This document shows, in pieces, positions 1,192-16,176 of a stretch of DNA of 20,269 nt. Positions within the stretch are counted from its first letter, which is position 1, and each line of letters begins with the position of its first letter. The DNA lies in IMG/VR virus record IMGVR_UViG_3300047300_000230, positions 1 to 20,269 of that record. One strand, written 5' to 3'. Under the pieces are notes generated by a model. It saw only the letters and a program-made list of their open reading frames with translations, was not told the origin of the DNA and searched no databases. The position numbers and the translations under genes are program-made. The DNA comes from a virus.

Positions 1192-4100
1192 TTATACTAT
1201 TGTAATAGTGCTACTAGTTGGTACGGTTAGATTACCACTTAAAGTTATTGGCCCCACTGTAACTGCATTGTAGTACTCTTTTGTACTTATATTTCCTGCT
1301 ACAACGTTTTTATTTTGTAAAAACGGTAACTGTAAATTTAAGTAGCTACCATCAAAATAAATACTACTAGTAGTATTACCAGTATAGAATTTACCTGTTT
1401 TATCTATAGTAGTACCTTGCCCTACAGGTACTTGTGCAGGTGTATCAACTAATACTAAGCTTTTGTTACCAACTACCACTGTTCCTATTGCGCGAGGAGC
1501 CACGCCGTAAGTATAGACACCATAAGTTGAGTTAGAAACTGGTGAATAATCTTTCCAGCTTATACCACCATCAGACGACTTAAGTAAGGTACCATCTGCG
1601 TCACTAACTGCAAATATTATGCTAGAGTCTAGAGCTCGTAGCTTTCTTACATTTCTTAGTACATTAACTGCGGTCCAGGTAGAACCATCTGTACTATACC
1701 TTATATATTTGCCTTCTGCTATCAAATATTTAGCTCCAGTCCATATATGGTCACTAGACCAAGTACTTCCTAGAGAAGTCATAGCAATAGATGGGGACCA
1801 AGTAATAGTGCTACCACTTAAGGTACCCGCTTGCCAATTATCGCCGTTAAGAGCTACATAAGATACAATATTATTAGAACTATTATAGGTAATTATACCT
1901 TTAATTGGAGCCTGACTACTGCCCGCATTAGTTACTGCCGACCAGGTATTACCTTCATCTATGCTGCGGTAAATATTTATTAATCCATTAATTAACCAAC
2001 ATCCTTGCTGAGAGTGCCATACGGCCTTAGGCCATGCTATCGAACTACTACTCAGAGCAATAGTACTAATATCTACTGGTGTACTCCAAGTTATTAGTAC
2101 TCCGGAGTAATTAATACCAGTTATTACCCCTTTAGTTACTCGCAGGGTTGCGTCAGTGGAGTTGATCTGTTGATAACCTGCAAGAATGATTTCACTACCA
2201 TTCCAGGACATTGAAACATTAAACCAGTTTGTTGTCATAAATGCTGGCGGTGTGCAAAGTCCCCAGGTTGCGCCGGCATCCCCAGAGTAAATACCATATA
2301 CAACTACATCTATAGGTGTCTTTACTTTACCTACAGCTATAGCTAATGGCGTTCCACTGTATTCAGCATATACCACGTCGTAGAGTATGGTTTCACCTCC
2401 ACCAATGCCAGCCGGAGAATCTTTAGATACCCAGTTAGTGCCCACTTCAGTTGTTTGTGTATCTATAGTACCTACAGTGGTAGTACCTGCAAAAGTAGTT
2501 TCACCAGTTGTAGCGTTAATAGCAAACGTTGTATTGCCATTAGTATCTACACCAAGTAAACCGCCTGGTGTCATTGCAACACCGCTACCACTTGTACGGA
2601 CGCCGCTAGCATTCCACTGTAAGTTACCGGCTCGGAAACCAGCACCTGTTACAGAATTAATACTAATTGTGCTATCTAGAATATCTGCTGCTGATTTGTT
2701 TAAGGCACCTATACCTGCTGGCGTTACTTGACCACTTACTGAAGGTCCACCTAATGCAGTTATACTACCGTTGGACGCAACAATAAGGTTAATGCTTGCA
2801 TTATTAACAGTAGTACCAGCCCCAGTACCGATACCTTGTATAGCACCATTACCGTCTACCGAAATATTACTATTGTAGATACCCGCTGGCTGATTCGTAA
2901 TTTGGTTCCAATTGTTTGACGACATGGGACCAAATTTAACTTTAGATATCGAAGCACTGGTAGTATAAATAGAAGAATCAAAATACAGCGGAGATGTAAT
3001 GGTTGCTGGTACAGTTCTTCGTAATGTCCCGTTTTGATAATATCTAACATTAGATCCGTCGTACGTGATCGATAAGATATCCCCGGCAGCATATGTACCA
3101 AAACTACCCCTATCTGCACCACTCTCATAAATTCTAAGGTCTCCGCCGCCGACGCAATACCAGGAATAGTCCAAGGTATCATAACTAGCATTAGTAGTTG
3201 GGTCGGTATTTAAACCTACCATTAACCAAGCATTAGATTGATCTGGGCTAAATGATATATAGGCACCTGTGGTGTAGCTCTCTCTAGAGTATGCCTGGGA
3301 ATCCCAAGATGAATTTGTACCGGCAGTCTTCTTAACAACATTGCCGTTGACAGTTACATTAGTTGTACCAAAAGTTAATGTATCTAGGAAAGAGTTATTA
3401 ACCACTACATTGGCAGTACCAGTTCCTTGTAAAACACCATTAGCATCTACAGTTATTTTACTATTGCTAACTACTACATCAGCAGTACCAGTTCCTTGTA
3501 AAACACCATTAGCATCTACAGTTATTTTACTATTGCTAACTACTACATCAGCAGTACCAGTTCCTTGTAAAACACCTGCAGTATCTACAGTTATTTTACT
3601 ATTACTAACTACCGTTCCGCCGCCGTCGCTGACACCTTGTATTTTACCATCAGTGTCTACATAAGTTTTATTAGCATCTAAAGCCCCAGTGTACCCTAGT
3701 CCACCAATAGTAACTGATCCGCCCCCACCACCATTTAGTGTACCGTTTGAGCTAATACTAATGTTACTGTTTAATACAGCTGAGCTTTCAAAGTACTCAC
3801 GTAGGCTTGGTTCTGTGCCATCGACTACGTTAATCATTGGTCTGCCAAAATACTGTATAGATCCACTAGCTGCATAGTATTGATACGCTCTGTGGCCAGT
3901 TACTCCAGCAGAAGTATGACAATAGTTTGTTCCGGCCTGAACTTTAGCACCAGTTTTGCAATCCCAAATACCTGCACTATCACTTGTGTTGTTTACGGAG
4001 CCGTACGGGAATACATAGCCAACAAACAAGTACCATCTATCATTAGACAGCGTAGTTCTATCTGCTACTGCAAAGTAAGGGTTAGTATTTTCCGTTGTTG

Positions 4101-5913
4101 TATTTAAATTGCAAACTCCATTAGTACCCCAATAAGCATACCCATTAGTTTGAGTACCGCTTACACGAATTGGTACAACAAAGCGATATGTTTTTGCAGG
4201 GTCTAGTGTAGAGGAGATGTTAGCGCCCCAGCCGCCGCCGCTTTGACCATCGCCGCTATCCTCACGGCAGAACCATACCAAGTCATTACCGCCACGAGGG
4301 CCTAGACCTGTAATATCAGCTCCTGCAGGTGCTATGCTAAGTATACTATTGTACTCGGCATTTTGGCTCCAAGGAATTGTTGCTCCGCGTTTCCACCAAT
4401 CAACATTGATAAGGTTGCTTTTAAAAGCATCGTCTTTTAAAACCGCACCAGTACTATCTTTTAAGTTAGTACCGGCTTGAGCACCGTAAGTGGCATTTAA
4501 ATCACCAGTATAACCTAGTCCGCCAATAGTTACCTTACCGCCACCAGCATTATTTAGAGTACCGTCTGCACCAATATTAATATTGGTGTTTACCCAGCTA
4601 GCAGGTTCGGCAATATAAGAATCACTTAAAGGTACGCCAGCAGATAGAATAATATTACCATCAGCATCCTTAATACTTAGTCCACGTGAATCAATTTTAC
4701 TAGCTGTGATAGTATTCGCTACTAATCTATCGCCGGTAATAGTATTTTCTACTATTAAGCTACCAGGAATATAAGTTGTAAATAGTACCCAACTAGTTGT
4801 AAATTTGTAGTTTTTAGCACCAGTATAGTTACTATAACTAACAATAGCCATATCACCAGCCACAGGAGCACGACCAATTACATCTTGTACTTCTTGTAGT
4901 GTAGGCGCTGAGCTAGTATCAGACGTTCCGCGATCAATTAAGAAACTAGCACTTCCTGGGTTACCGTTCGTGCCGTTCGTGCCGTTCGTGCCGTTAGTAC
5001 CGTTAGTACCGTTCGTGCCATTAGTACCATTATATCCAACAGCACGTAGTGGGTAGCTGGCGTCATTCCATAACAAATCAGACTCTGTTACGGAGCCCGC
5101 AGCAGCAAGTGGAATTGTTATCTGCCATAGGTAGCTACCAGGAGTATTATTACTTGGAGCAGCAGAATACCATCCAGTTGGTGTACCAATATTAGCAGTT
5201 GCCCATGTGTACTTTAGTGGTACTACAAGGGCGTCTGGTCTAGCAGGTGGTGTGGAATCCGTTGTCCACTTATAAATACTTGGATAAGCTACCTTACTAC
5301 CTGGCGAACCAGTTTGACCTGGCTGACCATCGTAAACAACAGATAAATTAACGGTTTTAGTAAGTGCGCTAATAACATTAGTGCCGGTAACTGTTAAAGT
5401 AACCGATATACCAGTAGAACCTGATGCAGGTGTTACCGTAGTTGTTTGTCCAGTTGCGGCGCTAAGTGTACCGCCGGTAATACTCCAAGCATATTGTGGA
5501 TTAATAATATTTGACGTATTGGCTACAAGTTGGGCATTAGCTGGTGTAAAGCTAGTATCTACATGCTGCACAAAATTAGTGTAGCCAGATATATCTATTG
5601 ACTGTGCATCACCTTTTGGAGTACCAGTATAGGTACTAGAAACAGTATAAACATCTGGATCAATATCGCTTATAATAGCATACTTAACATAGTACTGTGT
5701 ACTAGGTGTTAATCCAGAAATAGTTATGTTTAAGCTATTTCCGTCATAAGCTAGCGTACCTTCGCCATTTTTAGGATTGAAATTAGCGTCAGTTGTAGAA
5801 TACCATACTTTAGCTCCAATAACATCATCGCGTAAAGTAACCCCGTCTATGTCCAACGGGGCATTTATATTAAGTAATAAGGATCCTTGTCCTACAGATA
5901 AAGAAGCGCTCAT
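1192..5913 (-). CDS. Large mosaic tail fibre / host-recognition protein
   Basis: This 1573-aa protein follows the J-like gene after a short gap (TAAGGAATCTTAATG, giving a good AAGGA site). Domains read by eye: fibronectin-III-like (about 1-100); Ig-like (about 105-200, ending in a short GQPGQTGSPG); a collagen-like Gly-Thr-Asn run (293-320); a J-type linker with LIVENTITGDRLVANTITAS (about 382-401); a possible carbohydrate-binding module with Trp-Trp, Cys and aromatic residues (about 494-708); 23-residue repeats (about 765-833); a lectin/SPRY-like beta-sandwich (about 838-996, YDGSNVRYYQNG); and a C-terminal part with four Asp boxes (S1210, S1317, S1407, S1446), as in BNR/sialidase-type beta-propellers. 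It is a trimeric-fibre candidate at the tail tip that does the work of the C-terminal part of lambda J. I see no evidence for enzymatic activity beyond the Asp boxes, which are structural. Confidence 0.85.
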   Translation of the reverse strand: MSASLSVGQGSLLLNINAPLDIDGVTLRDDVIGAKVWYSTTDANFNPKNGEGTLAYDGNSLNITISGLTPSTQYYVKYAIISDIDPDVYTVSSTYTGTPKGDAQSIDISGYTNFVQHVDTSFTPANAQLVANTSNIINPQYAWSITGGTLSAATGQTTTVTPASGSTGISVTLTVTGTNVISALTKTVNLSVVYDGQPGQTGSPGSKVAYPSIYKWTTDSTPPARPDALVVPLKYTWATANIGTPTGWYSAAPSNNTPGSYLWQITIPLAAAGSVTESDLLWNDASYPLRAVGYNGTNGTNGTNGTNGTNGTNGTNGNPGSASFLIDRGTSDTSSAPTLQEVQDVIGRAPVAGDMAIVSYSNYTGAKNYKFTTSWVLFTTYIPGSLIVENTITGDRLVANTITASKIDSRGLSIKDADGNIILSAGVPLSDSYIAEPASWVNTNINIGADGTLNNAGGGKVTIGGLGYTGDLNATYGAQAGTNLKDSTGAVLKDDAFKSNLINVDWWKRGATIPWSQNAEYNSILSIAPAGADITGLGPRGGNDLVWFCREDSGDGQSGGGWGANISSTLDPAKTYRFVVPIRVSGTQTNGYAYWGTNGVCNLNTTTENTNPYFAVADRTTLSNDRWYLFVGYVFPYGSVNNTSDSAGIWDCKTGAKVQAGTNYCHTSAGVTGHRAYQYYAASGSIQYFGRPMINVVDGTEPSLREYFESSAVLNSNISISSNGTLNGGGGGSVTIGGLGYTGALDANKTYVDTDGKIQGVSDGGGTVVSNSKITVDTAGVLQGTGTADVVVSNSKITVDANGVLQGTGTADVVVSNSKITVDANGVLQGTGTANVVVNNSFLDTLTFGTTNVTVNGNVVKKTAGTNSSWDSQAYSRESYTTGAYISFSPDQSNAWLMVGLNTDPTTNASYDTLDYSWYCVGGGDLRIYESGADRGSFGTYAAGDILSITYDGSNVRYYQNGTLRRTVPATITSPLYFDSSIYTTSASISKVKFGPMSSNNWNQITNQPAGIYNSNISVDGNGAIQGIGTGAGTTVNNASINLIVASNGSITALGGPSVSGQVTPAGIGALNKSAADILDSTISINSVTGAGFRAGNLQWNASGVRTSGSGVAMTPGGLLGVDTNGNTTFAINATTGETTFAGTTTVGTIDTQTTEVGTNWVSKDSPAGIGGGETILYDVVYAEYSGTPLAIAVGKVKTPIDVVVYGIYSGDAGATWGLCTPPAFMTTNWFNVSMSWNGSEIILAGYQQINSTDATLRVTKGVITGINYSGVLITWSTPVDISTIALSSSSIAWPKAVWHSQQGCWLINGLINIYRSIDEGNTWSAVTNAGSSQAPIKGIITYNSSNNIVSYVALNGDNWQAGTLSGSTITWSPSIAMTSLGSTWSSDHIWTGAKYLIAEGKYIRYSTDGSTWTAVNVLRNVRKLRALDSSIIFAVSDADGTLLKSSDGGISWKDYSPVSNSTYGVYTYGVAPRAIGTVVVGNKSLVLVDTPAQVPVGQGTTIDKTGKFYTGNTTSSIYFDGSYLNLQLPFLQNKNVVAGNISTKEYYNAVTVGPITLSGNLTVPTSSTITIV
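3414..3620 (-). repeat. Three tandem 69-bp repeats in the fibre gene
   Basis: Units at 3414-3482, 3483-3551 and 3552-3620 have a 69-bp period. The first two are identical over all 69 bases; the third differs at a few positions around its middle and at its end. Each encodes 23 residues of the type NSKITVDANGVLQGTGTADV. Diverged single copies of the same motif (N-x-x-I-x-[IV]-x-x-x-G-x-[LI]) occur elsewhere in the fibre, so the block looks like a local expansion of a fibre-shaft building unit. The period is a multiple of three, so gain or loss of a unit keeps the frame. Confidence 0.95.
3686..3773 (-). repeat. 88-bp diverged direct repeat, copy B (fibre)
   Basis: This is a diverged copy of 4505-4592 with high base identity and no length change. 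It encodes NSNISISSNGTLNGGGGGSV followed by TIGGLGYTG. It marks the end of one fibre module and the start of the next, immediately before the tandem-repeat block in protein order. Confidence 0.8.
4505..4592 (-). repeat. 88-bp diverged direct repeat, copy A (fibre)
   Basis: This pairs with 3686-3773 and encodes NTNINIGADGTLNNAGGGKV followed by TIGGLGYTG. The two copies bracket the domain I read as a possible carbohydrate-binding module (about residues 494-708), so homologous recombination between them could remove or swap that domain in frame. Confidence 0.8.
4954..5037 (-). repeat. Collagen-like Gly-X-Asn triplet run in the fibre
   Basis: Nine-base units encode GYN, seven GTN triplets, GNP and GS (about residues 293-320). 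Two codon versions alternate (GGT ACT AAC and GGC ACG AAC). Short Gly-X-Y runs are common in phage fibres and are thought to form trimeric triple helices or flexible stalks. A shorter one (GQPGQTGSPG) lies about 80-90 residues earlier. Confidence 0.9.
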
Positions 5914-5922
5914 TAAGATTCC

Positions 5923-8900
5923 TTACGGTGATATGTCATATAGTACGATTGAGGTTAGCGCACTGCTAGTGCTATAATTACCTGCATTATCTAGCATACG
6001 ACAGGCTATTCTATATTTGGTGCCAGTATGTGACAACCTAGGCGATACAAAGTCACTTAGGTTAACATTTAAAGTACCTACACTTGTATAAGTTTTTATA
6101 CTTGTATCAGTTGAGGTCCAGAAATCTCCAGTACCAGGATCTTTAAATACTTTAATCTCAAAGTATTTAAAATCATTAGGCATGGTACTAGTAAATGGTG
6201 TAATTACTAGAGTTTTCTTGGAGCGTTTTACTGATACGCTTGTTACTGTATTGTAATTTACTAACTTACCTGATACTGTATGGTTAAGCCATGTTGACCA
6301 TAAGCCAACTCTACCATCATTAGATAAGTATCGCAATCTAATTTTATATTCTTCACCAGCAATAACATTAGGTATTTCTACTGTATTGGACTTATACTCT
6401 ACAATTATACTTTTATAACCAGAAGAGTTTGTAGTGCTGCTATATGCATACTGACACTCCACACTACCTACAGTATTGGGTAGAGTAGTTGGGTTAGCAT
6501 AGCTAACTTTTATTTTATACGCATATGTTCCAGGACTAATAAGGTCAGCCACTAAGTCATCGCTTTGTATATAAGTAATTGTAGGCTTGTCAGTGCTTCC
6601 AAAACTATTTAACAACCCTTTAGCTGGTTGAGTTATTTGAGTTTCAAATACTGTAGCTTCTGTTAAGTTTTGGTAGTCAGTAAATATGTTATAAGTACTA
6701 GTTACACCATAATCTACCATAGTAATTCGTGCAGATTTATTACTGGTAGGCTCTATGTTTGTTATAATTAGGTCTTGTGCTTCCTGTTGGTATTCTCCAA
6801 ACAGGAATAGATCGTTGCTATTTACCTCGTCAATAATAGAAGTAGTAGTTAGCCCAATAGTATCATAGTAACCATCATTTAACTTTGCAGTACCAGTAAT
6901 TGTACCATTAGATATATTACTACCTGCTAGTACATACTTAAAATATCCAGTACCTACTTCTGTTACTTCTGCGCTAGATGTATTTAGAGCCGTATTGCTT
7001 GATGCAATAGTTAGCTTATCCCCTACTTGAATAGGATGACTCAATGTAGTTATGTTAATAGTTACGGTATCATTAGTTCTAGACCCACCGGATATGGTAA
7101 AGCTTTTTAATACTGTAAAATCGGTACTAGCACCTGTTGAGCTTCTGAATCTAATAGTGTAATTTTTTAGTAGTTCCATTGGTAACGACTCATCAAGTTC
7201 CATTACCGTACTACTTAACCTATTCTTTACTCTGCCACTGCCAAGGCCCCACATAGGTACGTCATGTGTTACTTTAACTCTGTCACCGCGGTTACATACT
7301 ATATACTCAATATCAGTATTTAGAGTATATACTTCTTTACGAAGTATTGCTTGAGCCATATGCCACTTAGCGTGGTCTATGACTAGGCTAGATTTAGTAA
7401 CTCCTGGTAAGCTAATTGACTCAAATAATTCTGCATTATCAATGTTTTTACCTATGTTATATACTATAGATTCTACTTCTTGATAATTTTGATCTTCATC
7501 ATAGAAACTTATTTTAAGAGCATCGGGAAGTTTAGGTAGCGCTTTAGTACTCTCAAAACCCCAACTATTATGTGGTGTAAAGTGCTGTATTATTGTAGAT
7601 TTAGGTTCATCTATTACTACTGACCACTTACCATCTAACATAGCTGGACTAGCTCGTCCGGCTGCACAAATGTCTCGAAGCGTGTCTAGCACACTGCGCT
7701 GTGACCCCATAACACTATTATAAGTGAAGCCTTTTGTAACGCAATAATCATGCCAGCGCTGTATTTCAGCTAAGTTTAGTTTAGTACTTATTTCGCTATC
7801 TAATATTCGTTGTGGATTAGCTGGATGCTGTAATACGTATCTATATAAATCAGCTGGATTATTGGTTGCGGCATATGCCCAGGTAGTACCGTTCCAGCTT
7901 AGACACCAGGTTTCTACGATCGCATTTATACCTTCAATCTGATTATTAAGCTGCTCACTTGCCTTAATTTGTAAGGCTGTTTTTGCAATCTTGCAGTTCT
8001 TTGGATCACGAGTTGGTTTAGTATTAGTCTTGAAATAAGTAGCTGATAGGAACGTTATTTCATGACTATATCTGTGATCGGGATTATCTTCTGTATTATC
8101 ACCTGTTTCGCGTCTAACGCGAACACTAACGGCTTGATTTGATACGTCATAAGTTTCAGTTACTGTAAATGCGTCCTTTTTAACTGCATCTGTTCCATAA
8201 GTAACCGTTTTCCAAAGTACCCAGTCACCACTACCAATCTTAACTTCAAATCTAACTTTAACTGTAGTGTTTGTACTATCTCCAGCTCCGTCACCTTTTA
8301 CCTTAATCTTGCGCAAACCTTGTGGAAAGTGTAGTGCAACTATTACTTTATTAACAGCTTGCGCATACGCGCTTACCTTCCAAGGACCTGGAGTTATATT
8401 TGTGTCTTCTGGATTACCATTGCAAGCTAATACTAAACTATCGTTATCTTGAAATACGTCTGAGCCGTAAATGGAATCAAATTTAGTTTGTACTTCCTCA
8501 GTTGGTTCTGTTTTTCGGTCAAGCGTAATAAACTTCTGCGATCCGTCACTAAATGTGTCCAGCACAAACTCGCTAAGCGCTACATCACCTATTTTTAAAG
8601 TTGCGGCGTCAATCTGTAGTGGTCCGTAACCCCACACTAACAACATAGTTAAGTAAGTATCACGCTCATTTTGATAACTAATAAAGTTATTAGCGCCTAA
8701 TGGAGGTGTTAGTTTTACTCGGCCTAATACTACTGGAATAGAGCCGTACGGATTAGCGCGATTAGCACTGCCAGTAACCATTAGCTGGCGTTCGCTAGAT
8801 CCTGGATCTGCAGCTTCGGCTGGAGGGCGAATAGGTGCAATGGCATTAATTAGCATCATGCCTACCATGCTAACCCCTGCGGTAATAGCGGCTGCCATTA

Positions 8901-9657
8901 TAGGTGAAGCTGCTGCAAAAGCTCCATAGGTTGTTGCAGCAGTTAATCCAGCTGTGTTTCCTATGGATAAGGCTATTTCTGGCGCTATAATAACCATTGC
9001 TAACATTGCAAACATACGGAAGCTATTACCGCCAGTAGCAACTGCACGATACTCAACGGAGTCTCCTACCTCAATAGTAGTAAGTGGCCATTCCGATTCT
9101 GGGATAGGCTTGCCCGCTACCATTACTAGGACTTTTCCGCCTAGTTCTGGCTGTATATTGTACTTTTGGTTTATGTTGCCAACTAGCTCTAGTACTGTAG
9201 TACCGGGTGTTATTGGTAATGTGAATCGCTCAGTACGTAGTGGGTGTGGCATTGCAGTCATTAGCTGCGTATTTTCTACGTATTTAAAATAACCTACTAT
9301 TCGTTTATTCCACTGCGGAGAATCAAATGACTCAACCGCACTGTCTTGTCCTTCGCGCGCATGTAGAAAGTGTGTACCGCTTACGGCTACACCAATATGT
9401 GACTCAGTTCCAAGTATACGGAATACGACCACACAACCTTCTACTGGTTGGTCAATAGGCTCCCAGCCTTCTTTATATTGGGATACTAAATCTTGAATTC
9501 GCTCTATGTCTTGTTGTATATATTCACCACTAAAACTAGGTAAAATTATGTTATATTCACGTTCATAAACAAGACGCACTAATCCCCAGCAATCTGTGCC
9601 GTCAAGATCTCGCCCTTTTTCTTTGTAGGGTATACCAATATATTTATTTGACCACAT
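5923..9657 (-). CDS. Fused K-I-J tail tip protein: NlpC/P60 peptidase + ubiquitin-like domain + tip attachment protein
   Basis: This is one 1244-aa reading frame. Residues 1-130 are an NlpC/P60 peptidase as in lambda gpK, with Cys23 in DGTDCWGLVRLVY, His87 in SHIGVAV and His99 in FLHA as the likely catalytic triad. Residues 139-210 look like a ThiS/MoaD-type beta-grasp (VLVMVAGKPIPESEW, then VGDSVEYRAVATGG), as in the gpI region or N-terminus of some J proteins. A hydrophobic stretch follows (about 214-275). From about 290 the protein is J-like (RQLMVTGSANRANPYG, LTMLLVWGYGPLQI, SQRSVLDTLRDICAAGRASP) and ends in fibronectin-III-like domains. J-type proteins close the tail tip, and the peptidase probably cuts peptidoglycan cross-links during DNA entry or processes a tail component. 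The start overlaps the L-like stop (TAATG). In lambda, K, I and J are separate genes, and the J C-terminal part is here a separate fibre. Confidence 0.9.
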   Translation of the reverse strand: MWSNKYIGIPYKEKGRDLDGTDCWGLVRLVYEREYNIILPSFSGEYIQQDIERIQDLVSQYKEGWEPIDQPVEGCVVVFRILGTESHIGVAVSGTHFLHAREGQDSAVESFDSPQWNKRIVGYFKYVENTQLMTAMPHPLRTERFTLPITPGTTVLELVGNINQKYNIQPELGGKVLVMVAGKPIPESEWPLTTIEVGDSVEYRAVATGGNSFRMFAMLAMVIIAPEIALSIGNTAGLTAATTYGAFAAASPIMAAAITAGVSMVGMMLINAIAPIRPPAEAADPGSSERQLMVTGSANRANPYGSIPVVLGRVKLTPPLGANNFISYQNERDTYLTMLLVWGYGPLQIDAATLKIGDVALSEFVLDTFSDGSQKFITLDRKTEPTEEVQTKFDSIYGSDVFQDNDSLVLACNGNPEDTNITPGPWKVSAYAQAVNKVIVALHFPQGLRKIKVKGDGAGDSTNTTVKVRFEVKIGSGDWVLWKTVTYGTDAVKKDAFTVTETYDVSNQAVSVRVRRETGDNTEDNPDHRYSHEITFLSATYFKTNTKPTRDPKNCKIAKTALQIKASEQLNNQIEGINAIVETWCLSWNGTTWAYAATNNPADLYRYVLQHPANPQRILDSEISTKLNLAEIQRWHDYCVTKGFTYNSVMGSQRSVLDTLRDICAAGRASPAMLDGKWSVVIDEPKSTIIQHFTPHNSWGFESTKALPKLPDALKISFYDEDQNYQEVESIVYNIGKNIDNAELFESISLPGVTKSSLVIDHAKWHMAQAILRKEVYTLNTDIEYIVCNRGDRVKVTHDVPMWGLGSGRVKNRLSSTVMELDESLPMELLKNYTIRFRSSTGASTDFTVLKSFTISGGSRTNDTVTINITTLSHPIQVGDKLTIASSNTALNTSSAEVTEVGTGYFKYVLAGSNISNGTITGTAKLNDGYYDTIGLTTTSIIDEVNSNDLFLFGEYQQEAQDLIITNIEPTSNKSARITMVDYGVTSTYNIFTDYQNLTEATVFETQITQPAKGLLNSFGSTDKPTITYIQSDDLVADLISPGTYAYKIKVSYANPTTLPNTVGSVECQYAYSSTTNSSGYKSIIVEYKSNTVEIPNVIAGEEYKIRLRYLSNDGRVGLWSTWLNHTVSGKLVNYNTVTSVSVKRSKKTLVITPFTSTMPNDFKYFEIKVFKDPGTGDFWTSTDTSIKTYTSVGTLNVNLSDFVSPRLSHTGTKYRIACRMLDNAGNYSTSSALTSIVLYDISP

Positions 9658-10211
9658 TAGAATAATCCTGGAAAATATACTGCGGTAAATGCATGCATAG
9701 GGAACGGTTCTCGTTCATAGTCTATCATGGACAGGTTAGCCACTACAGTATTAGAGTTATATGTTATGTCATTAATGTAGAAACCACTAAAACTAGCCTC
9801 TACTGTATCTGGTGACTTAGATAGTACTAACTCCATAGTAATCTTTGGAGGTTTACCAATACTTCTAATGATTGGAGTTAGGTGACGAGTAACATCGTGT
9901 AGTGTAAGGCTACAGCGAGGCGCTTGTGCTTCTTCTTCGCTTGGAAGGCTAATTTCCATTGGTAAAAATAAAAATTCTTTACTGCGACTTGTTACACCGT
10001 AATACACTTCATCTGGTGTTTCTGGGTAATCTACAGACAGTCTGCCTGTATAATTATCCGCTAAACGGACTAATACTTCTTGATCGTGTTCTGGATCTTG
10101 TGGGTCGTAATCTGGATCGTATACAGTTAACAAGAAGATAAGATCGCTATCTGCCTCTGGACTAAATACTGCGCGTATTGCATCCAAGGACATAGTAGTT
10201 AGCCTACTCAT
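9657..10211 (-). CDS. Minor tail protein, lambda gpL-like position (DUF1833-type)
   Basis: This 184-aa protein is acidic near the N-terminus (VYDPDYDPQDPEHDQE) and has a beta-rich body with FLFLPMEISLPSEEEAQAPR and a C-terminal FYINDITYNSNTVVANLSMI. The sequence and its place between the M-like and K-like proteins fit the DUF1833/gpL group of tail-tip proteins that build the hub between tube and tip. The ATG overlaps the upstream TGA by four bases (ATGA), with GGAG about 11 nt upstream inside the preceding gene. A second Met at residue 7 (MSLDAIRAVF) is possible, but the overlap favours the first. Lambda gpL binds an iron-sulphur cluster through its Cys residues; only one Cys is visible here (residue 99), so such a cluster is not expected. 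Confidence 0.78.
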   Translation of the reverse strand: MSRLTTMSLDAIRAVFSPEADSDLIFLLTVYDPDYDPQDPEHDQEVLVRLADNYTGRLSVDYPETPDEVYYGVTSRSKEFLFLPMEISLPSEEEAQAPRCSLTLHDVTRHLTPIIRSIGKPPKITMELVLSKSPDTVEASFSGFYINDITYNSNTVVANLSMIDYEREPFPMHAFTAVYFPGLF

Positions 10212-10579
10212 GGAAGTATCTCCATTTGTAGGCTAACGGTCCAGTATCCTGGGGCAAGATATGATAAGTTGTACATTGCACCTTCGCCTTGTGGAATTAG
10301 TCGTACTTCTACTGTTTGATGAGTACGAGGGTGTGTAAAACCAAATCTAGAAATACTACGTATAAAATTCGGGCCAAGTACAAATGTTTCTAGGGTTTGT
10401 ACTTGAGCATCAGTCATTATAAAACTTAATTGCATTGTTTGCGGTTTTTTACCGCGATATCTACGCTTTGCTATGCCCTGATCCATAGGAGTGCTAACTA
10501 TGTTAGCACCCCCGGTTTCTGTAAAACCTTTTTGCGGAACTTGCGGCAGTGTTGCAGGCCATACATAATTATATGCCAT
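10208..10579 (-). CDS. Minor tail protein, lambda gpM-like position
   Basis: This is a 123-aa protein. Visible features are an N-terminal WPATLPQVPQKGF, then MDQGIAKRRYRGKKP, a hydrophobic core and a C-terminal LAPGYWTVSLQMEILP. The pattern of a short WP-x-x-LP opening, a basic R/K cluster and a final strand is seen in small distal-tail proteins encoded directly after the tape measure. It most likely forms the ring joining tube and tip. Its ribosome site AGGAG is formed by the last two Arg codons of the tape measure (AGG AGA TAA), so the two genes are probably translationally coupled. It overlaps the next gene by four bases. Assignment rests on position and general pattern more than on a strong motif. 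Confidence 0.75.
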   Translation of the reverse strand: MAYNYVWPATLPQVPQKGFTETGGANIVSTPMDQGIAKRRYRGKKPQTMQLSFIMTDAQVQTLETFVLGPNFIRSISRFGFTHPRTHQTVEVRLIPQGEGAMYNLSYLAPGYWTVSLQMEILP

Positions 10580-15381: not shown

Positions 15382-15415
15382 AAAAAGCCTGTTAACTTCC
15401 GCTAACAGGCTTTTT
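15382..15415. terminator. Bidirectional intrinsic terminator after the chaperone genes
   Basis: A perfect inverted repeat has 13-bp arms (15382-15394 and 15403-15415) and an 8-nt loop. The GC-rich core AGCCTGT is flanked by A and T runs, so it can end transcription from either strand. The right-hand chaperone frame's stop codon (15392-15394) lies inside one arm. Confidence 0.92.
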
Positions 15416-15784
15416 GTTTTGCTCTTTGCGATTTATTTCTTCTGCTCGCACAGAATCAATCATTCTGACCAGCATAATAATTAACTTATGCTCGTCAGGC
15501 TCGACTTCTGTGGCTTCCAAAATATCCTTTATACCAATTAGTGATTTTCCGAGATACGATCCACTCATAGTGTCCCACTCATCTCGTAACATCCTATACA
15601 CACTAAAAGCTTGCTGAACTTCTAGCGGAAAGTCTTCGTATTCTACTGGTATTTCAGACTCAACTGGCTCATTGCCCAAAGTTTCGCACATTTCAAAGTA
15701 CATATCCTTTGTCATGCTAACCTGTTGATTCTGAATGTAGTTGACCAACTGCTTGTTTACTTCGCTGAGTTGGTCTTCGAAAAG
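15392..15784 (-). CDS. Tail assembly chaperone, -1 frameshift extension (gpT-like part)
   Basis: This frame has no convincing start of its own (the first start-type codon is TTG at 15748, without a proper ribosome site). It is open from the slippery site at 15784-15790, reading LFEDQLSEVNKQLVNYIQ and on through acidic, helical sequence to KEQNKKPVSGS. A -1 slip at codon 131 of the upstream frame fuses the two into a 261-aa product (131 + 130 residues). This matches the gpG/gpGT arrangement of lambda, where the longer form links tape measure and tube subunits during tail assembly. The extension has no recognisable domain beyond its charged, helical character. The stop codon is inside the following terminator. 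Confidence 0.85.
   Translation of the reverse strand, partial: LFEDQLSEVNKQLVNYIQNQQVSMTKDMYFEMCETLGNEPVESEIPVEYEDFPLEVQQAFSVYRMLRDEWDTMSGSYLGKSLIGIKDILEATEVEPDEHKLIIMLVRMIDSVRAEEINRKEQNKKPVSGS
15743..15775 (-). promoter_or_regulatory. Frameshift-stimulating stem-loop
   Basis: A perfect 8-bp stem (GACCAACT at 15768-15775 pairing with AGTTGGTC at 15743-15750, minus strand) encloses a 17-nt loop. It begins 8 nt after the slippery heptamer, within the spacing range typical of -1 frameshift stimulators. The stop codon of the upstream frame lies in its loop. Confidence 0.75.
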
Positions 15785-16176
15785 TTTCCCAAGTCACTTA
15801 CCTGCTCCGATACAAACGCATCAAAGTTTGAGGAAGCTTTCATCAAGTAAAGTGCGTTTTCCGCAGTAAACTCTAGCTCGTCTTCTGGGTCTTGGCTTGT
15901 TAAGTCAACAGGCGCTAGTTCTTCTAGATAACGTAATTTTAACCCCTTCCAGCCTTTTACAGCATTCTCAACATAAAGTTGCAAGAACAATTCTTCGTTG
16001 AAATCTTCTTGTGGTTGGCGATTTTTAAAAGTAGTTTTAGTAGACTTTTTACGAATGTTTAGTAGTGTTTCGCGGCTTAAAAAGGCCAAGTCTACAAAGA
16101 ACCCTGGCATCCCAGGAAATTCAACAGATACCGCTTTTGACGGCACTAGTAGAGATTTAAGAGAAATATTAGACAT
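15757..16176 (-). CDS. Tail assembly chaperone, zero-frame product (gpG-like)
   Basis: This 139-aa protein lies between tube protein and tape measure, the standard position of the gpG-type chaperone. It begins MSNISLKSLLVPSKAVSVEF, has a basic middle (IRKKSTKTTFKNRQ) and an acidic second half (SQDPEDELEF), and ends NFSKTNSAK. The family keeps the tape measure soluble and helps recruit tube subunits; these proteins do not enter the finished virion. Near the C-terminus the codons TTG GGA AAC form a -1 slippery site leading to the longer form. The leader between the tube-gene terminator and the ATG (about 24 nt) is A/T-rich and lacks a Shine-Dalgarno sequence, which is unusual among these genes. 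The function is inferred from position plus the frameshift architecture, since sequence conservation in the family is low. Confidence 0.88.
   Translation of the reverse strand: MSNISLKSLLVPSKAVSVEFPGMPGFFVDLAFLSRETLLNIRKKSTKTTFKNRQPQEDFNEELFLQLYVENAVKGWKGLKLRYLEELAPVDLTSQDPEDELEFTAENALYLMKASSNFDAFVSEQVSDLGNFSKTNSAK
15784..15790 (-). promoter_or_regulatory. -1 programmed frameshift slippery heptamer G GGA AAC
   Basis: The minus-strand heptamer GGGAAAC has the X XXY YYZ form and is in the correct register: G is the third base of codon 129, GGA is codon 130 and AAC codon 131 of the upstream frame. A slip of both tRNAs by one base enters the open -1 frame that ends at 15392. Lambda uses the closely related GGGAAAG at the same place. 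Confidence 0.9.

Follow-up and report, generated by a model that had tools for sequence, protein, structure and literature searches.

The window analysed here is the whole of an IMG/VR virus record, 20,269 bases long. A single gene runs from 9657 to 5923 on its minus strand, a strand that the preliminary description had not given. It starts with an ATG at 9657, its stop codon ends at 5923, and it encodes 1244 aa without an internal stop. Tape measure, M-like and L-like genes precede this fused gene, matching the H-M-L-K-I-J order of lambda, and the last base of the gpL-like gene is the A of the fused ATG. The features of the locus were assigned as follows.

10208..10579, minus strand: gpM-like gene, 123 aa (position; PHROG 384, virion structural protein, 2e-10)
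9657..10211, minus strand: gpL-like minor tail gene upstream of the fused gene, DUF1833, 184 aa (Pfam 3.5e-4, just below cut-off; PHROG 396, 1e-15)
9274..9657, minus strand: NlpC/P60 peptidase domain, residues 1-128 (Pfam, invariant triad, Foldseek, predicted model)
9250..9273, minus strand: flexible link between NlpC and beta-grasp, residues 129-136 (pLDDT <50 at 129-144)
9040..9249, minus strand: ThiS/ubiquitin-like beta-grasp domain, the N-terminal domain of lambda gpI, residues 137-206 (Pfam in relatives, AF2 topology, Foldseek)
9028..9033, minus strand: Gly209-Gly210 codons (read directly; GG in 19/81 distinct sequences)
8956..9024, minus strand: hydrophobic helix H1, equivalent of gpI H1, residues 212-234 (hydropathy peak 2.06 at 215; helix in both models)
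8839..8901, minus strand: hydrophobic helix H2, equivalent of gpI H2, residues 253-273 (hydropathy 1.93 at 252; weak hhalign match to gpI 133-171)
8683..8838, minus strand: plug/strand region resembling the C-terminal part of gpI, about residues 274-325 (weak profile match)
5923..8682, minus strand: lambda-J-like hub and fibre body, about residues 326-1244 (profile, Foldseek, PHROG 31, NF040662)
3399-3612 and 4964-5032: repeat regions within ORF 5913..1192

Other parts of the window also carry tail-related features. A canonical -1 slippery heptamer (G GGA AAC, 15784-15790, minus strand) lies near the end of a tail-chaperone G-like gene; across the ORFs 16176..15757 and 15748..15392 the -1 frame is open to 15392, which matches the G/GT frameshift arrangement of lambda. 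ORF 5913..1192 encodes a 1573-aa fibre protein with three 69-base repeats (94% matches) and a 9-base Gly-Thr-Asn repeat with a weak collagen match. Three consecutive minus-strand ORFs (95-472, 454-822 and 824-1183), each of about 120 aa, share a GFxxPDGTxQ-like start, and one of them matches tail-fibre PHROGs; the trio possibly represents small fibre proteins derived by duplication.

The N-terminal region had been described as an NlpC/P60 peptidase with the triad C23/H87/H99, and this assignment held. NLPC_P60 (Pfam) matched residues 8-122 with an E value of 6.5e-13, and the papain-like Cys-His-His fold was recovered both by Pfam and by Foldseek matches to MepS and LytE. The triad codons lie on the minus strand at 9591-9589 (C23), 9399-9397 (H87) and 9363-9361 (H99), and all three residues are invariant in 81/81 distinct sequences. 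The predicted model of residues 1-128 was confident save about residues 41-60. Relatives of the domain with solved structures were mostly the peptidoglycan hydrolases MepS, LytE and SagA (Foldseek and profile searches); the score against TIGR02219, a phage cell wall peptidase model, was 29 bits, below its curated cut-off of 81.9. In a tree of NlpC domains, the fused forms grouped together more than expected by chance, a pattern compatible with one origin of the fusion or with several. Three related phages (L099, L114 and L115) carry, immediately downstream of the fused gene, a 230-aa ORF that matches an NlpC profile at residues 106-206; judged by this match, it possibly encodes a second peptidase.

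A ThiS/ubiquitin-like domain had been proposed to follow the peptidase. Pfam ThiS matched 33/36 relatives (best 1.1e-10), and Lambda_tail_I matched 11/36 (best E 6.7e-4) but not the window sequence, whose own segment 128-301 matched no Pfam model. The AlphaFold model of this part, made from 36 sequences (mean pLDDT 62, about 70-90 in the beta-grasp core), showed the beta-grasp order, followed by two helices. Structure prediction had been named beforehand as the check for a beta-grasp at residues 139-210, and the fold was present. The best PDB fold matches in Foldseek were nearly all ubiquitin-family or ubiquitin-derived proteins and ThiS (E about 2e-3, probability 1.00, none below 0.001). These three lines of evidence bear the assignment out. 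Ubiquitin matches of the A2 profile in a PDB sequence search were set aside, as they summed over repeats and held no significant single domain. In a second model, residues 129-144 were flexible (pLDDT <50) and the beta-grasp then extended to residue 206; the PHPL motif at residues 137-140 is well conserved among relatives.

This second model covered residues 1-870 (62 sequences, mean pLDDT 72.5) and contained helices at 212-234 and 253-273, low confidence to residue 304, and then a mostly confident hub. The A3 family profile aligned at 220-325 with gpI 103-208, weakly (E 0.055) and in order with its match to lambda J 100-513 (E 3e-6). When A2 was aligned directly with lambda gpI by hhalign, the match was likewise weak and covered H2 alone (E 0.068). 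APIRPP follows H2 in the fused protein and APKARTP follows H2 in gpI. Given the second model and the in-order gpI and J alignments, the stretch previously noted simply as hydrophobic most likely corresponds to the H1/H2-plug region of gpI. The lambda counterpart of this region sits inside the lumen of the tip, and its entry into the outer membrane has been proposed (PMC10721106, PMC11101478). For the remaining body, Foldseek matched the hub model to lambda gpJ with an E value of 7e-19, recovering the HD and FNIII fold of gpJ. Pfam placed FNIII-A_GpJ at 425-525 and Phage-tail_3 at 653-803, PHROG 31 'central tail fiber J' matched at E 3e-67, and NCBIfam TipJ (NF040662) scored above its cut-off.

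NlpC, beta-grasp and plug were found in a single frame in 127 proteins from two scans; with the window included, there are at least 81 sequences distinct over the first 290 residues, and nearly all are environmental. The cultured Curvibacter phage P26059A (84-kb genome) carries the same fusion in a 1644-aa protein, its 'tail component'. The search for related phages suggested in the preliminary description thus gave, with the window counted, at least 81 distinct sequences and an isolate. As far as sequence and predicted structure go, all 81 share the domain order NlpC, beta-grasp, H1/H2, gpI-like plug/strand and J hub. With the uninterrupted frame, the domains of all three proteins in order and the same arrangement in relatives, the earlier claim that K, I and J form one chain is confirmed. 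An assembly artefact was rejected, as the fusion recurs on many independent contigs and in an isolated phage, and so was a separate I-J protein made by internal restart, M133 and M136 not being conserved among relatives. Wherever the contig allows it, relatives have a single frame; the exceptions are four in which it is interrupted within J and one whose sequence contains a run of N. In the four (L071, L116, L117 and L126), an in-frame stop is followed by a GGAG-like ribosome-binding-like site and an ATG in the same frame; the hub gene has a second break point here, within J. The short frame of L019 (630 aa) was rejected as a real stop, as the run of N causes it. When the I part alone was searched by tblastn against phage records, the Curvibacter phage was the sole find, and a scan seeded with lambda gpI returned near-identical copies only, which served just for checking the frame of K. 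A separate NlpC gene beside a beta-grasp-helices-J chain occurs in other phages.

The Gly-Gly described at the end of the beta-grasp domain is literally present in the window, at residues 209-210 (plus-strand positions 9028-9033), and its position is the equivalent of the junction reported to be processed in lambda. However, it is not a family feature: GG stands at the junction in 19/81 sequences, column 209 is gapped in 43/81, and 5 of the 24 clusters formed at 60% identity are uniformly GG. A single Gly at the second or third residue past the last strand (beta-5) was found in 80/81. The fused-family junction is mostly P-G-K or P-x-G, with a variable spacer of 6-11 residues before H1; in 16 phages with a separate gpI, the tail is mostly G(S/A)K-x-(G/A)G immediately before H1. 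GG-dependent cleavage is not supported as a family mechanism. Because one junction Gly is conserved so widely, a single-Gly cleavage site is possible.

In lambda, gpK with a deubiquitinating domain was reported to cut the ubiquitin-like domain off gpI once gpI has joined the tip complex (2025 conference report, PMC12908700); that domain, unnamed in the report, is taken here to be JAB. The fused junction is equivalent to this processed gpI junction. Published models begin at residue 101 in lambda gpI (GG at 100-101) and at residue 92 in T1 gp34 (GG at 91-92), starts that could be explained by cleavage at this point or by the edge of a disordered part; other lambda gpI models begin at 133-135. 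Lambda gpK was not found in virions (PMC10721106). JAB (PF14464) was present in 16/16 phages with a separate gpI (lambda, T1 and 14 others), in 0/13 K-I-J records (12 environmental records of 51-101 kb and the Curvibacter genome, with positive controls), and in 0/6 records in which the fusion joins I and J alone, hence 0/19 fused records in all; because the phages compared are related these are not counts of independent events, the environmental records may be fragments, and the Curvibacter genome alone among the K-I-J records is declared complete. A JAB encoded elsewhere in the genome was likewise not found in those 12 environmental records or in the Curvibacter genome, and Pfam detected none in the fused frame of the window. 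In Iyer, Burroughs and Aravind (2006, PMC1779556), fused forms were already remarked to lack JAB almost always, TAPK (JAB, possibly NlpC) was proposed to process TAPI, and I-J and I-K fusions were listed. In the lambda reference itself (NC_001416 14127-14443; L137), the JAB part of gene K is split over two frames, and 26/26 prophage relatives compared with lambda K have one extra base at the same place; the break is either a frameshift of the reference strain or a sequencing error.

In our reading, the gene probably belongs to a lambda-like siphophage and encodes its tail-tip hub as a single chain, a fusion of the NlpC part of gpK with gpI and gpJ that holds the plug and a wall peptidase in cis. 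The preliminary description had instead suggested self-processing during tip maturation. In this reading NlpC would cut its own chain past the beta-grasp and release NlpC-beta-grasp while plug-J stays in the virion, replacing the JAB cut. The suggestion is partly supported, in that the junction is homologous to one reported processed in lambda. An invariant triad lies in cis, one junction Gly is conserved, another enzyme would be needed since JAB was not found, and Iyer et al. (2006) allowed for an involvement of NlpC (PMC1779556). However, self-cutting at Gly-Gly is not supported, because the site is not conserved and JAB, the presumed enzyme of the matching lambda cut, was not found; as a general rule it is unlikely. 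The spacer to H1 also varies, the nearest relatives of the NlpC domain are peptidoglycan enzymes, and phages with I-J fused carry related NlpC domains as a separate gene. We therefore consider self-processing unlikely. Its more specific form, in which phages with an I-J fusion lost JAB and NlpC acts as a papain-like 'deubiquitinase' that removes the ubiquitin-like domain in cis at the single conserved Gly, maturing its own tip, is more doubtful still. Slightly less probable again is a cut elsewhere or by another enzyme, for example a host or other phage protease acting at the flexible residues 129-144 and simply freeing NlpC. The low pLDDT there and the boundary at about this place in several related phages that encode K and I-J separately would suit such a cut, but the stretch includes the conserved PHPL and no protease candidate was identified. 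That the beta-grasp is an active ubiquitin-like modifier, conjugated or thiolated via its Gly, is very improbable despite its ThiS-like fold and conserved Gly, as the GG is internal to the encoded chain and not conserved, unlike the free C-terminal Gly-Gly of conjugated modifiers (ThiS/MoaD/Ub), and without cleavage there is no free C-terminus.

For the single-chain hub, three copies of the fused chain would form the tip cone. The H1/H2-plug part would shut the lumen and, on opening, insert in the outer membrane, as has been suggested in lambda and T5. The NlpC domain is proposed to be retained in the virion and would ride on the plug, cutting peptidoglycan where the phage injects, a role already suggested for the RcGTA and R4C tail peptidases; RcGTA g14, the analogous enzyme, degrades peptidoglycan (PMC7296036). 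Action on peptidoglycan appears likelier than NlpC cutting its own chain. On the other hand, there may be no room inside or beneath the tip for three uncut NlpC-beta-grasp units, and some processing would then be favoured. The beta-grasp would be the former gpI assembly domain, which gpK is reported to remove in lambda as a timing step. Since no JAB was detected and most of the fused family has no (G/A)G tail, this step was probably lost or replaced there. The family thus offers a natural experiment on lambda tail-tip timing, with the ubiquitin-like domain kept without JAB and mostly without the (G/A)G tail, and comparison with lambda would tell whether the hub cannot do without domain removal or whether this is an extra step of hubs made from split genes. 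Moreover, a wall-peptidase-type domain covalently on the plug gives a testable model for how a peptidase reaches the periplasm.

The same domains in the same order are found in lambda gpK, gpI and gpJ and in T1 gp35, gp34 and gp33, with the beta-grasp followed by H1/H2 and a J hub fold. Lambda and T1, however, use three genes, with JAB in gpK and usually (G/A)G at the gpI junction, whereas the fused family has one gene, no JAB found and mostly no (G/A)G. I-J and I-K fusions and TAPI processing were already put forward in 2006, and the triple fusion is an incremental variant of these. The TAPI-TAPJ and TAPI-TAPK fusions (PMC1779556) resemble the present chain in that I is fused to J or K and JAB is usually lacking in fused types, but those listed in the passages covered join two parts and not all three. 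To the extent that the 2006 account is accessible, an all-in-one K-I-J chain is not described in it (PMC1779556); the literature covered leaves out most subscription papers. The Sf11 paper makes no mention of plug, NlpC or gpI. In the phages Nitrincola 1M3-16, Rhizobium RHph_Y3_1, Pelagibaca P1, Microcystis Mwe-Yong1, RcapMu and RC1, NlpC is likewise followed by a chain of beta-grasp-like region, helices and J, but is encoded separately, by a gene that abuts or overlaps that of I-J; JAB was not found in the first four (four of six such phages searched). RcGTA and R4C encode the tail peptidase g14 beside the megatron g15, a hub with N-terminal membrane-penetrating helices (PMC7296036, PMC10276861); they differ from the fused chain in having separate genes and a megatron whose N-terminus starts with the penetration helix. 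T5 pb3 is a single-chain hub with an internal plug, so that hub and plug are in one polypeptide, as here (PMC10721106). While pb3 includes the gpL part, in the present phage gpL is separate and NlpC and the beta-grasp domain are added to the chain.
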